Positions 3,522 to 25,470 of a DNA stretch of 34,135 nt are shown piece after piece. Origin of the DNA: Candidatus Nitrosopumilus sp. (GTDB taxonomy: Archaea; Thermoproteota; Nitrososphaeria; Nitrososphaerales; Nitrosopumilaceae); assembly GCA_007571135.1 (NCBI GenBank), contig RKRY01000168.1, forward strand, positions 1-34,135. Reading direction: 5' to 3'. Numbering within the stretch: the stretch's first letter is position 1; every line of letters starts with the position of its first letter. The translations under genes were made by a program, and so were the position numbers. A model generated the notes under the pieces. That model was given only the letters and a program-made list of their open reading frames with translations. It was not told the origin of the DNA and searched no databases.

Positions 3522-3598
3522 AGAGGATTTTTTCAAATCAATCAAAAAAATGGAAAATTTGAACTAATATTAACCAGAAAATATGATTTTATTTACAA

Positions 3599-5831: not shown

Positions 5832-5908
5832 TCTGTTATACAACCCTGCTCAGATTTGGATAATCCTGACCAAAAATGGCTTTGAGAAACATGGTGTGGA
5901 ACAGACTA
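5829..5908. mobile_element. Family B miniature inverted-repeat element, copy 1
   Basis: This 80-bp element starts TAGTCTGTT and ends AACAGACTA, so it has GTCTGTT inverted ends each flanked by TA. Its length and interior match the element at 25636-25713 in reverse orientation. The TA on each side suggests a TA target duplication of the Tc1/mariner-IS630 kind. It is inserted in the TAG stop of the upstream gene. Removing the element and one TA regenerates TAG, so the insertion did not change the protein. It separates that gene from the promoter of the aminotransferase operon. Confidence 0.7.
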
Positions 5909-15869: not shown

Positions 15870-16900
15870 CTGTAATCAGATTGCAGGCGGCAACTTTTGA
15901 CATGATCTCATGCACCGTGTTCTCCCACATGATGCCATGACTGACTCGCCAAATATTTCCTTAAACGCAGAGAAGGCGGCCCACATCCAACGCTTGCCAA
16001 ACTTGGATCGCTCCTTCCATCTCTCTGATTCTCCTTCTTTTGCTAGTAAGCGTACCTATAGCTTTTAGGCGATCTGCCAGATGGTCGCGTACGGCTTCCC
16101 CATGATCACCCTTCCTCTGCCCTTTGCAACAGAAGTGATCTTCAATCGTATGGATGTATGGATGGTGCCACGGTTTTGCACTCCTTGTGTATGCCACATG
16201 TAGCGTACGCCGCATCTTCCATGACATGCGCTGTGACATAATTTATGGAAGGTGTGCCAATAGCAGATGCACGAACATCTTCGAGTCGCCTGCGGCATCG
16301 TCGGTAGCCTTGAGTACATGAATAATTCGTGTCCGTTAGACGAGTACTGCATCTTGACAAATCGGCTACCGGCCTTCCACTTTTGGCGTATCTGCTTGCC
16401 GTGGCTGTCTACCTTGATACTGTGCTGTCAACAGGTAATCGGTTAAGTCACATAAAGGAACTTGTAAAAAATGAGAGTTCATAGTTTGCATATTCTATAT
16501 TTTTCAATAACTTGCTAGATTTTGCATGATTAGTTGACGTTATCAAGCCTAACTTAACCGATTACGTCAACAGCATGAAAGCGTGTCTTGAACCGTCTTT
16601 GTCTGATACCGTAACCTTTTGTCGATCGTCTGTGCGCTGGGATCTTGGATCCTTCTGAGCATCATAGTATGCAGGCACATGCATATAGACATCATTCCAA
16701 GGGCCATGCCGGCAAGCTGCCCATACGGAATCTCATGTACTGGATTATTGCAATGTAGGCAGACAACAAGTTTGCGTATAGAAATGGTGCATCGTTCTTG
16801 CGTTAGTTTGCCTCCTTTGCTCCTATTCCATCAGGCCGTTCGTGTAACACGGACATTTGCCACGGTCAACGTATTTTGCGCTGTCAATACGAGCCAACGA
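15870..16900 (-). pseudogene. Decayed IS5-group DDE transposase (remnant 2), split by a family A element
   Basis: On the minus strand, across several frames, the blocks of an IS5-type transposase appear in order. IDSAKYVDRGKC is near 16890-16855; VHEIPYGQLAGMALGMM near 16735. VDST, the first catalytic Asp, is near 16430. IKVDSHGKQIRQKWKAGSRFVKMQ follows in another frame near 16415-16340. GKRWMWAAFSAFKEIFGESVMA near 15990-15930 is the C-terminal block containing the catalytic Glu region. WENTVHEIMSKVAACNLI ends it near 15920-15870. Multiple stops and frameshifts make it non-functional. A 131-bp family A element with target duplication interrupts the VDS codons. The same motif order is seen in the remnant at 810-1650, so both derive from related insertion sequences. 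Confidence 0.7.
16435..16565 (+). mobile_element. Family A miniature inverted-repeat element, copy 1
   Basis: This 131-bp element has perfect 14-bp terminal inverted repeats (GTAATCGGTTAAGT at both ends). It is flanked by the 8-bp direct repeat GTCAACAG at 16427-16434 and 16566-16573. Its entire length aligns with the reverse complement of 24730-24859, with about 20 differences by eye. It carries no reading frame of note and so must have been moved by a transposase supplied elsewhere. GTAA ends with 8-bp duplications resemble IS66-type elements, but that assignment is only a suggestion. It sits inside the decayed transposase. Confidence 0.85.
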
Positions 16901-17099: not shown

Positions 17100-17636
17100 T
17101 TAATCGTGTGCGTGTGGATTCTCAGAACCGGATTCCATCAAGACGTATGTACCATTTGCTTTTTCATGGTATTCAATGTATGACGGTTCAATCAAGATTG
17201 CTTTTTCTGGACACGCCTCTTGGCAAGCCATGCATTGCGTACAATCGTGTTCTCTTATTGGTTGTGATTTATCTGTGTAATCTAGACGTTCATCCTGTTC
17301 GGTTAAACCAGTACCGTCAAAGGTCTCATCCAAGCAAGATGATGCGGGGATGTCTTTTTCAGTTCTGTACCACTGGAAAGTCTGTACTGGGCAAACACTC
17401 ATGCACGAGCCTTGTGCTGTACAGTCGTCCCAGTCAACTGCGACAGTAGTACCATGAATTCCAAGTGGAACCTGTTCTTCACCACGTGCTTCATATGCTG
17501 CTTTTACATCATCATTTGAAAATGCTGCGCCGTCAGCTTTGCCTTTACCCCAGATAAAGTGCTTGTTTTCACCGTCACTGTGGTTTGTTTTTCCAGCAAT
17601 CTCTAGATTTTCGACAAATTTCTCATCTATTGGCAT
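17100..17636 (-). CDS. Zinc-type dicluster ferredoxin (copy 1, His-bearing)
   Basis: The 178-residue protein resembles the Sulfolobus zinc-containing ferredoxins. These are small cytoplasmic electron carriers, for example for 2-oxoacid oxidoreductases. A long N-terminal extension carries His19, His26 and His61 (GIHGT). The first cluster motif is C72-x5-C78-x3-C82-P, where the canonical second Cys is Gln75, so a [3Fe-4S] cluster is likely. The second motif, C132-x2-C135-x2-C138-x3-C142-P, should bind [4Fe-4S]. At the position of the Sulfolobus zinc ligand Asp76 (ADPV) this copy has Gln125 (SQPI). The promoter box is identical to that of the neighbouring paralogue. It ends ENPHAHD, as does the paralogue. 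Confidence 0.88.
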   Translation of the reverse strand: MPIDEKFVENLEIAGKTNHSDGENKHFIWGKGKADGAAFSNDDVKAAYEARGEEQVPLGIHGTTVAVDWDDCTAQGSCMSVCPVQTFQWYRTEKDIPASSCLDETFDGTGLTEQDERLDYTDKSQPIREHDCTQCMACQEACPEKAILIEPSYIEYHEKANGTYVLMESGSENPHAHD

Positions 17637-17753: not shown

Positions 17754-18342
<589 letters not shown>

Positions 18343-22326: not shown

Positions 22327-23814
22327 GTGAAAGGGTTTCTAATTTTTTTCTTTATAGTTGCAGCCATCCCACCTGCATTTAGCGAAGAATTTCCAGATTT
22401 GGGTGTAAAAGTTGAAACAGTAGCAGATAATCTAACAATTCCATGGAGTATTGATTGGCTTCCTAATGGAGATGCCATATTCACTGAGAGAAACGGGGAT
22501 CTAAGAATCATACAAGATGGGGAATTGCAAGACGCCCCATTACTATCACTTAGCGTGGCAGGTGTGGAAGGGGGGATGCTAGGAGTTGCAGTTGATCCAT
22601 ACTATTCTGAAAATAATTTCATCTATCTTTACTACACATACAATGAATTCTTGTCCACGCAAAACAAGCTTGTAAGATATTATTTCAGTGATGATACGCT
22701 AACTGAAAGCAAAGTTCTAGTGGATGGAATTCCGGGCGGGCCATTTCATGATGGGGGAAGAATTCAATTTGGACCTGACGAAAAATTATACATTACAACA
22801 GGAGATGCTGGGGATCCAAACTTATCACAAGATCTTGATTCGCTTGCAGGGAAAATTCTAAGAGTTAATTCAGATGGAACGATTCCAGAAGACAACCCAT
22901 GGAAAGATTCGCCAATCTATTCAATAGGCCACAGAAATCCACAGGGGATTGATTGGGACATCAATGGAAATTTGATTGCAACTGAGCATGGACCATCCGG
23001 ATGGAGGGGTAACGCTCATGACGAGCTAAACCTCATTACCCCAGGCTCAAATTATGGATGGCCAGACGTAATTGGAGGCGAGACCAAGATAGGACTGCAG
23101 AATCCGATTTTGCATACGGGAGATGACACTTGGGCACCATCAGGTGGAGAATTTTACGAGTGGGATAAAATTCCTCAATGGACGGGAAAATATTTCGTTG
23201 CCACGCTGAGAGGAAGTCATCTTCACATGGTTGATTTTGATCTACGAAACAATAAGGTGATTTCAAGCGAAAAATTATTTCAAGATGATTTTGGAAGATT
23301 ACGGGATGTACAAACAGGTCCTGACGGATATCTCTACATTCTTACAAGTAACCAAGATGGAAGAGGATCTCCCAATTTAGGCGATGATAAAATCCTGAGA
23401 ATCATGCCATTAAATCCTGCTAATGATTGCAGTGTAACTACAGAAAGCCCAATTGCAGTAGATGCAATTCCAGAAATACAGAATGGAACCACAAAAATCA
23501 AGGTAAGTGGATGCGTTGATGATACTGCAAAATTTAAACTAATCAATTTGGAGATTTTTGATCCCAATGGGGAGTTTGTAACAGGCGGTGTAGTCACACA
23601 AGAGGATGGCAAGTTTGAAAGAACTTTTGAAGGGAAAGTTTCAGTAAATGGAACTTATTTAGTGGTAGCTGATGCAAATGGAGAGTTTGCAGTGACAAAT
23701 ACATTTGTTGTTCCAGAGTTTGGCCAGACTTTAGTGGTAATTTTGATAATCGGTGTTGCTGCAGGATTGATTGGATCAACTAAATTATTTCCAAATATTC
23801 AATTACCGAAATAA
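22327..23814 (+). CDS. PQQ-type glucose/sorbosone dehydrogenase (GSDH) with PEFG sorting tail
   Basis: The secreted protein of 495 residues carries a six-bladed GSDH propeller. Landmarks are NLTIPWSIDWLPNGD, EGGMLGVAVDPYY, GGPFHDGGRIQFGPDEKLYI, SIGHRNPQGIDW, ATEHGP and RLRDVQTGPDGYLY. Soluble relatives oxidise aldose sugars with PQQ and Ca2+; whether this one does is unknown. A hydrophobic signal peptide (FLIFFFIVAAIPPAFS) opens it. After a beta-sandwich module the C-terminus is VVPEFGQTLVVILIIGVAAGL, a PEFG motif plus helix, the archaeal sorting signal for membrane processing. I prefer GTG 22327 because a TATA-like CTTTATTG lies about 25 bp upstream. The frame is open from an ATG at 22249, which is the alternative start. 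Confidence 0.82.
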   Translation: MKGFLIFFFIVAAIPPAFSEEFPDLGVKVETVADNLTIPWSIDWLPNGDAIFTERNGDLRIIQDGELQDAPLLSLSVAGVEGGMLGVAVDPYYSENNFIYLYYTYNEFLSTQNKLVRYYFSDDTLTESKVLVDGIPGGPFHDGGRIQFGPDEKLYITTGDAGDPNLSQDLDSLAGKILRVNSDGTIPEDNPWKDSPIYSIGHRNPQGIDWDINGNLIATEHGPSGWRGNAHDELNLITPGSNYGWPDVIGGETKIGLQNPILHTGDDTWAPSGGEFYEWDKIPQWTGKYFVATLRGSHLHMVDFDLRNNKVISSEKLFQDDFGRLRDVQTGPDGYLYILTSNQDGRGSPNLGDDKILRIMPLNPANDCSVTTESPIAVDAIPEIQNGTTKIKVSGCVDDTAKFKLINLEIFDPNGEFVTGGVVTQEDGKFERTFEGKVSVNGTYLVVADANGEFAVTNTFVVPEFGQTLVVILIIGVAAGLIGSTKLFPNIQLPK

Positions 23815-23815
23815 G

Positions 23816-24607
23816 ATGGAATATAAAATCGGATGTACGGGATGGAGTTATCAAGGTTGGTCTAGAACATTTTACCCAAAAAATCTCAAGAGTTCAGAGT
23901 GGTTAGGATACTATTCAAAGATTTTCGATATTACTGAAATCAACTCAACATTTTACAGAATTCCATCACAGGAGGTTGTACGAAGATGGAATGCAGATAC
24001 CCCCAGACATTTCCGATTTTCAGCCAAATTTCCATCAATAATTACACATGAAAAGAGGCTAGAAAATGTAAATTCTGAGATTTTTTCATTTTTGTCGTCT
24101 CTAGCACCAATCCATGAAAAAATTTCAGCCCTGGTTTTACAATTGCCTCCTTCGTTGTCGTTTGGTGAGTCAAAATCAAAACTAGATGGAATATTTGAAA
24201 TACTGCCAGATGATTTTCTCTATCCAATTGAAGGAAGACACGAATCGTGGTTTTCTGAAGAGGCAATCTCATTTTTAAAACAGAAAAATCATTGTCTAGT
24301 GTGGAGCGATATTGAAGGAGTAACAAACTCTATGCCAATTACATCAAACTATCTTTATATCAGATTAATCGGGGGCAGAATAATCCCGGATTCAGAATTT
24401 GGACAGATAGCGATTGACAAAAAAGAGCAAATCAAAAGATGGGCCAGAAAACTAGAAAGTATCTCCGATGTGCCACTTGCAATGGTTATGACAAACAATC
24501 ACTATGAGGGATTTGGTCCTGTAACTGCAAACTCTTTGAGAAAGAATCTTGGAATGAAAGAATTAATCTGGGAAGAAAAAAGGCAAAAAACTTTGCAAAG
24601 TTTCTAG
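23816..24607 (+). CDS. DUF72 family TIM-barrel protein
   Basis: The 263-residue protein belongs to the DUF72 (YecE-like) family, conserved TIM-barrel proteins of unknown function. Hallmarks are KIGCTGWSYQGW at the start, EINSTFYRIP, FRFSAKFPSIITH, VLQLPPSL and EGRHESWF, then YLYIRLIGG and MTNNHYEGFGPVTA. The ATG at 23816 follows the dehydrogenase stop by one base, so the two are probably co-transcribed. An upstream in-frame ATG at 23771 lies within that gene and is less likely. Some relatives are neighbours of repair genes; here a uracil-DNA glycosylase is two genes upstream, which may be chance. Confidence 0.87.
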   Translation: MEYKIGCTGWSYQGWSRTFYPKNLKSSEWLGYYSKIFDITEINSTFYRIPSQEVVRRWNADTPRHFRFSAKFPSIITHEKRLENVNSEIFSFLSSLAPIHEKISALVLQLPPSLSFGESKSKLDGIFEILPDDFLYPIEGRHESWFSEEAISFLKQKNHCLVWSDIEGVTNSMPITSNYLYIRLIGGRIIPDSEFGQIAIDKKEQIKRWARKLESISDVPLAMVMTNNHYEGFGPVTANSLRKNLGMKELIWEEKRQKTLQSF

Positions 24608-24729
24608 AGACATAGATTCTTCAATGGAAATGAGCACCGATCCTGCAAGCCGGTCAGCCAAACAAAAAGGCGATCAGGACATGCGTATGTGTATGTTGTC
24701 AATATTTAAGGCAAGGCAGTAGTTTTACT

Positions 24730-24859
24730 GTAATCGGTTAAGTCAGCTTTGACAATTTCAACAAATTATGCAAGATTTATCAAATTATTGAAAAATATAC
24801 AGTATGTAAGCTATGAACTCACATTTTTTAGAAGTTCCTTTATGTGACTAACCGATTAT
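24730..24859 (-). mobile_element. Family A miniature inverted-repeat element, copy 2
   Basis: This 130-bp element is the reverse-complement relative of 16435-16565. Its left end GTAATCGGTTAAGTC and right end GACTAACCGATTAT are imperfect inverted repeats. It is flanked by the 8-bp direct repeat GTTTTACT at 24722-24729 and 24860-24867. It carries no gene. The right terminal repeat supplies the TAA stop of the DedA gene on the minus strand. Removing the element and one duplication would extend that frame by Thr-Ala-Leu-Pro before a TAA, so the insertion clipped four residues. Confidence 0.85.
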
Positions 24860-25392
24860 GTTTTACTAGCTGCAAGACCAATAGATTCGCCAAAATAATA
24901 TCCGGCAAGAATTGTTCCTGTGGCCCAAATTAAAGAACCTGCAAATGTGTATAAAACAAATTTTGAAACTCTCATTTTTAACAATCCTGCAGGAATTGAA
25001 ATCATTTCCCTCATTACAGGAACCATCCTTCCTAGAAATACTGCCTTCTCACCGTACTTTGCAAACCAAATCTCAACACGTTCTAATTTTGATTCATGGA
25101 CCTTGACATATTTTAGATAGCGCAACAAAACAACCCTTCCAAGCTTTAGAGCAATCAAGTAAATTGCCGAAGTTCCAATGGTTGCGCCTATTGCTCCAAA
25201 AAGTATCATTGGGACAACACCGATCAGAGGAATTCCTTGTTGGTTGGCCAAGAATCCTGCAGTTGGAAAAACTGCTAATGTTGGTATAGGAGGAACGATG
25301 GTTTCAAGAAGGGCTGCAAGAAAGATCCCCTCATAAAGATGATTTCCTAGAAAATCAGAGATCCTTACTAAAAACGAGTCAAACGGTTCCAT
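24856..25392 (-). CDS. DedA/VTT-domain membrane protein
   Basis: The 178-residue membrane protein is of the DedA (SNARE-associated, VTT) family, linked in bacteria to lipid flipping and proton-dependent membrane homeostasis. The E-x-x-x-P-x-P-T stretch (LLETIVPPIPTLAVFPTAG) and the second motif (FLGRMVPVMREMISIPAGLLKM) are both present, with four to five hydrophobic segments. A TATA-like GTAATTTAGTAAG at about 25412-25424 on the minus strand is roughly 26 bp before the ATG. The last Thr codon and the stop run into the family A element, which trimmed the C-terminus. As only a short tail is lost, the protein is probably functional. Confidence 0.87.
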   Translation of the reverse strand: MEPFDSFLVRISDFLGNHLYEGIFLAALLETIVPPIPTLAVFPTAGFLANQQGIPLIGVVPMILFGAIGATIGTSAIYLIALKLGRVVLLRYLKYVKVHESKLERVEIWFAKYGEKAVFLGRMVPVMREMISIPAGLLKMRVSKFVLYTFAGSLIWATGTILAGYYFGESIGLAASKT

Positions 25393-25436: not shown

Positions 25437-25470
25437 TATCTATTTTACAACCCTGCTCAGATTAGGATTA
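25437..25470 (+). mobile_element. Half copy of the family B element
   Basis: The segment containing ACAACCCTGCTCAGATTAGG matches the left half of the element at 5829-5908 over about 30 bp with few differences. The other half is absent here. Its inverted counterpart end lies at 25680-25713, so the whole 25437-25713 interval might be a longer element with a nested or rearranged interior. Confidence 0.5.

Follow-up and report, generated by a model that had tools for sequence, protein, structure and literature searches.

The window (the whole stretch of DNA analysed, 34,135 nucleotides) belongs to a fragmented metagenome assembly of a Nitrosopumilus species and carries, on its minus strand, the gene for a DedA/VTT-domain membrane protein (Table 1). 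The VTT domain match that places the protein in this family (PF09335) covers residues 38-165, leaving the C-terminal tail outside it. A convergent DUF72 gene lies downstream and marks the locus as orthologous; the arrangement is the same in each of the 31 loci of relatives at which the pair was found. Between the two genes, a MITE has entered the 3′ end of DedA.

Table 1. Features at the DedA locus and the second MITE copy in the window
Feature	Position	Strand	Details
Gene for the DedA/VTT-domain membrane protein, now 178 aa	24856..25392	-	PF09335, E=5.3e-21
DUF72 gene, convergent to DedA	23771..24607	+	PF01904, E=3.2e-50
Former DedA gene end, now stranded	24706..24721	-	TACTGCCTTGCCTTAA; joined-flank translation, alignment to relatives
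Left target-site duplication	24722..24729		GTTTTACT; sequence, identical to 24860-24867
MITE copy of 130 bp (131 bp in the family consensus)	24730..24859		own-genome matches, copies read, consensus
Left terminal inverted repeat	24730..24745	+	GTAATCGGTTAAGTCA
Right terminal inverted repeat	24845..24859	-	ATAATCGGTTAGTCA (inward), lacking one A of the family; on the plus strand, final T where the family has C; sequence, consensus
Present DedA stop codon (TAA), within the MITE terminal repeat	24856..24858	-	sequence, ORF list
Right target-site duplication	24860..24867		GTTTTACT; sequence
Second MITE copy, 131 bp	16435..16565	-	target-site duplication GTCAACAG

A 30-base stretch (TACAACCCTGCTCAGATT...) occurs in nearly identical form at 25439-25468 and at 5832-5861; it may be a further small repeat or a regulatory site common to both places.

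The MITE insertion and the former end of DedA

Read base for base, positions 24722-24867 consist of an 8-bp target-site duplication, the 130-bp element and a second 8-bp duplication. Identical flanking repeats had been claimed in the initial annotation, and the two copies of GTTTTACT match without a mismatch. Relative to the consensus, the element is missing one T in its right-hand terminal repeat. DedA now has 178 aa and ends ...AASKT. The codon of its last residue, ACA, is made of two bases of the duplication and the first base of the MITE, and the TAA that follows is MITE bases 2-4 counted from the minus-strand side, so that the stop after Ser-Lys-Thr does lie in the terminal repeat, as had been proposed. 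When the flanks are joined with a single duplication, a 182-aa frame ending AASKTTALP-TAA is recovered, followed by ATATTGACAAC and agreeing with the SKTTALP-stop end that the initial annotation had predicted for removal of the element and one duplication. In this translation the old stop is the TAA at 24706-24708; the MITE landed four codons short of the end and the net loss is four residues (TALP).

DedA orthologues in the genus (77-85% identity) are often 182 aa long and end in ITPLP, TPLP, TSLP, SSLP, TPSLP, PPLP or similar. After their stop codons come TAAATATTRAAAAC and, further on, TTTGTTTGGCTG, each of which has its counterpart in the alignment of the joined flanks. The MITE is absent from this site in every orthologue read among the relatives in the genus. 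Alignment to close relatives thus yielded what had been expected of it: the site is empty there, and the tail is TTALP-like and of the same length (182 aa).

The variable tails, and the closest relative (L116, 89%), whose DedA ends at residue 176, would also fit a gene that had always stopped here in this lineage, with the MITE merely downstream and the TTALP of the joined flanks a coincidence. We regard this as hardly credible: the TAA is inside the MITE, the duplication is inside the coding frame, and the joined flanks reproduce the relatives' tail length, LP ending, stop and next bases. L116 itself carries an in-frame TAA at codon 177 (near locus base 3529), a point stop behind which the old tail ITPLP-TAA (ATTACTCCCTTGCCTTAA) is still readable as a vestige. 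Barring an assembly error, the alignment to relatives refutes this alternative.

The tail loss in L116 is independent and occurred without any element, so the length of the DedA tail is not under strong constraint. In another relative (L173) the tail is frame-shifted, and the protein ranges from 173 to 186 aa among relatives. Tail trimming is therefore recurrent and probably near neutral. The suggestion that the insertion did little damage fits these data, because the tail is variable, lies outside the VTT match and was lost independently in L116. What sets the present case apart from the other tail losses is that a mobile element is the cause.

A second gene was rewritten by the same MITE family, the same event in the other frame. 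This gene, on contig C112 (L220:740-1573, minus strand), encodes 237 aa and ends RKKVVIG, its VIG and stop being supplied by GTAATCGGTTAA from the MITE. Joining its flanks gives RKKVL-TAA at residue 235, and in 16 of 16 relatives read the orthologue ends at residue 235 with RKKIL, RKKVL, RNKIL or similar. The empty site in relatives is thus seen at two loci, DedA and the C112 gene.

A lineage-specific MITE family

The family has a 131-bp consensus with 16-bp terminal repeats (GTAATCGGTTAAGTCA). Its members are short, well within the <600 bp that defines MITEs, have terminal inverted repeats and occur as many dispersed copies with target-site duplications, and at 130 bp the element is too small for a transposase gene and is thus a non-autonomous MITE. 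In a first aligned set of 45 copies, identity to the consensus was 86-95%. With 40 of 172 candidates scored, the source genome contains at least 41 matches to the element at E<=0.001; the terminal repeat matches 269 times, against 3 with a reversed control. Because some of the 269 belong to an IS66 parent and not to the MITE, copy number can only be estimated, at 110-130 copies or ~1% of the 1.47-Mb assembly.

Our duplication statistics rest on 90 distinct copies that were read. An 8-bp duplication is exact in 30 of these and has one mismatch in 13 (43 with 0-1 mismatch). The exact duplication at DedA is therefore not due to chance. The split is bimodal, with 44 of the 90 copies lacking an 8-bp duplication, and checking shifted registers in the latter recovered none. 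Such copies may have arisen by deletion, by inversion or through joins made in assembly. Reciprocal recombination is not supported as their source, since the 90 sampled copies gave only 4 cross-pairings, all around CCTAGGAC.

In 94 other genomes of the genus the family is absent, save for 2 single one-mismatch matches to the terminal repeat, and a search of 40 relatives for the element gave only one 22-base match, at chance level (in G014). The burst is therefore lineage-specific, the terminal repeat occurring in numbers in 1 of 95 genomes. An Rfam scan of the window returned only two tRNAs and nothing at the MITE. A literature search combining MITE and Nitrosopumilus found no report, and likewise none of the present family.

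IS66 as the probable mover

Pieces of an IS66 transposase (PF03050) are present on contigs C67, C79, C87 and C90 of the same genome. Many IS66 left ends start with GTAATCGGTTAAGTCACGCACAATG and then run into ATGGAAAACCCGGATGTC (MENPDVK...), while the right end encodes ...SEMLLRILVAT-stop with the stop within GCGACTTAACCGGGTAC. Single remnants (C90, C15, C59) carry both IS66 ends or both transposase ends, so that coding sequence from the N- and the C-terminus is found in one remnant. Because right ends with the same or almost the same protein sequence close five contigs (C84, C90, C108, C134, C153), the data suggest a multi-copy, recently active IS66 whose interior is missing from the assembly. 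An intact transposase was not found among the assembled contigs of this genome, which hold only pieces and contig-end fragments. MITE copies are also found nested in or joined to remnants of this presumed parent (L102, L104, L025, L248, L003, L010).

The MITE terminus and the IS66 left end are identical over 16 bases. The right ends are related, although two of the first eight bases of the IS66 right end (GTACCCGG) do not match the MITE termini. Reading showed no similarity farther in than ~17 bases from the ends, and we rejected an origin of the MITE by internal deletion of IS66; the unlike interior suggests that the MITE was mobilised by, and not simply deleted from, the IS66 of its own genome. 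Published IS66 elements begin with GTAA at their termini and are bordered by 8-bp repeats (PMC11946415, PMC12898284), and an IS66 element in a related genome (G261) is flanked on both sides by the 8-bp duplication ATCAAAAT. The MITE shares the terminal repeats, the 8-bp duplication and the GTAA start, matching the published IS66 start GTAAGCG only through GTAA. On these grounds the TnpC of IS66 is the probable mover.

Another transposase with 8-bp staggers might have made the same, real insertion, the IS66 match then reflecting convergence or end capture. The interior unlike IS66 past about 17 bases and the lack of an intact IS66 transposase among the sequences read would suit such a mover. 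We nevertheless consider it unlikely, given that the 16-base identical left terminus is tied to N- and C-terminal IS66 coding sequence in single remnants and that both the duplication length and the GTAA start are IS66 traits.

Very likely, then, the MITE was moved in trans by IS66 TnpC and inserted into the 3′ end of DedA, duplicating 8 bp. The exact duplication, the MITE family, the termini common to IS66 and the empty site in relatives are direct observations; the move by TnpC is inferred. Against this explanation are the absence of a duplication from about half of the copies (44/90), the two mismatches of the IS66 right end, the element-free tail loss in L116, the fragmented assembly and the lack of an intact IS66 transposase. 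In the proposed sequence of events, TnpC from an IS66-family element with the same terminal repeats would act in trans on the 131-bp MITE, which would enter DedA with duplication of 8 bp of target. In DedA the first TAA of the terminal repeat takes over from the original stop, dropping four residues of the variable tail. The insertion was presumably tolerated because these residues lie outside the conserved domain.

Gene ends, terminators and known systems

The MITE could alternatively be a domesticated bidirectional transcription terminator (a T6 tract on one strand and a T5 tract on the opposite one, plus a hairpin), with the DedA copy kept for that reason. The T tracts are conserved among copies and the predicted RNA fold of the MITE has z = -3.87, but the terminal repeats alone already explain the hairpin, and the family occurs in only one genome of 95. 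Nor is there a preference for gene ends: the 61 classified copies lie between convergent (13), divergent (14) and tandem (34) genes in numbers close to those of element-free gaps >=50 bp (10, 13 and 29). Because sites between convergent genes are not preferred among these 61 copies, a terminator role gains no support, and we give it very little credence.

The terminal repeat has TAA at positions 2-4 and 10-12 and closes two of three frames within 12 bases. Such portable gene ends, with a two-frame TAA and T tracts, might replace a stop and terminator with little harm and the copies be selected on that account, which we consider quite improbable. Nearly all other copies are intergenic and show no orientation preference. 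Across the 90 copies, 11 open reading frames of >=70 aa run into the element, but some belong to IS66 remnants or are probably spurious.

Gene ends supplied or altered by a MITE are already known from QMITE1 and QMITE2 of Coxiella burnetii, short MITEs that, as here, overlie gene 3′ ends and affect stops and C-termini (PMC5896051). QMITE2 has duplications of 7-11 nt and extends EnhC (PMC5896051), whereas in the present genome DedA has become shorter and the C112 gene longer, and the element families differ. MITECca01 of a Cardinium endosymbiont likewise represents a single MITE that multiplied in one lineage, to 169 copies; most are intergenic and some are nested in other mobile elements. Its parent, however, is of the IS982 family and its host a bacterium (PMC9769881). 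In the archaeon Haloquadratum walsbyi, MITEs also have only terminal bases in common with the transposon that moves them, but these belong to other transposon families and comprise 55 copies in five families (PMC3119063). The ISBst12 group of IS66, which includes ISDge4 (terminal inverted repeats GTGACTACTCAGCA/GTAACTGCTCAGCA, 8-bp duplication; PMC12898284), resembles the present system in its GTAA-type termini and 8-bp duplications, and the parent remnants here match PF03050. Unlike members of that group, the MITE has no transposase and shares only terminal bases, and its parent is present in pieces only. A survey of mobile elements in thaumarchaea from 2019 (PMC6563490) does not use the term IS66 in its main text.

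The DedA locus provides a base-level before-and-after view of a protein terminus rewritten by a mobile element in an archaeon, the C112 gene being another, independent case from this genome, and adds a lineage-specific MITE burst with its probable IS66 parent to the description of Nitrosopumilus, a marine ammonia-oxidising archaeon. For annotation, it means that a transposon can donate protein ends in this genome.

Other repeats were seen elsewhere in the window. A 36-base direct repeat (1462-1497 and 1532-1567) has 94% identity at a spacing of 70 bases. Two adjacent ferredoxin-like genes (17100-17636 and 17754-18308), about 70% identical across 204 bases, form a tandem duplication.
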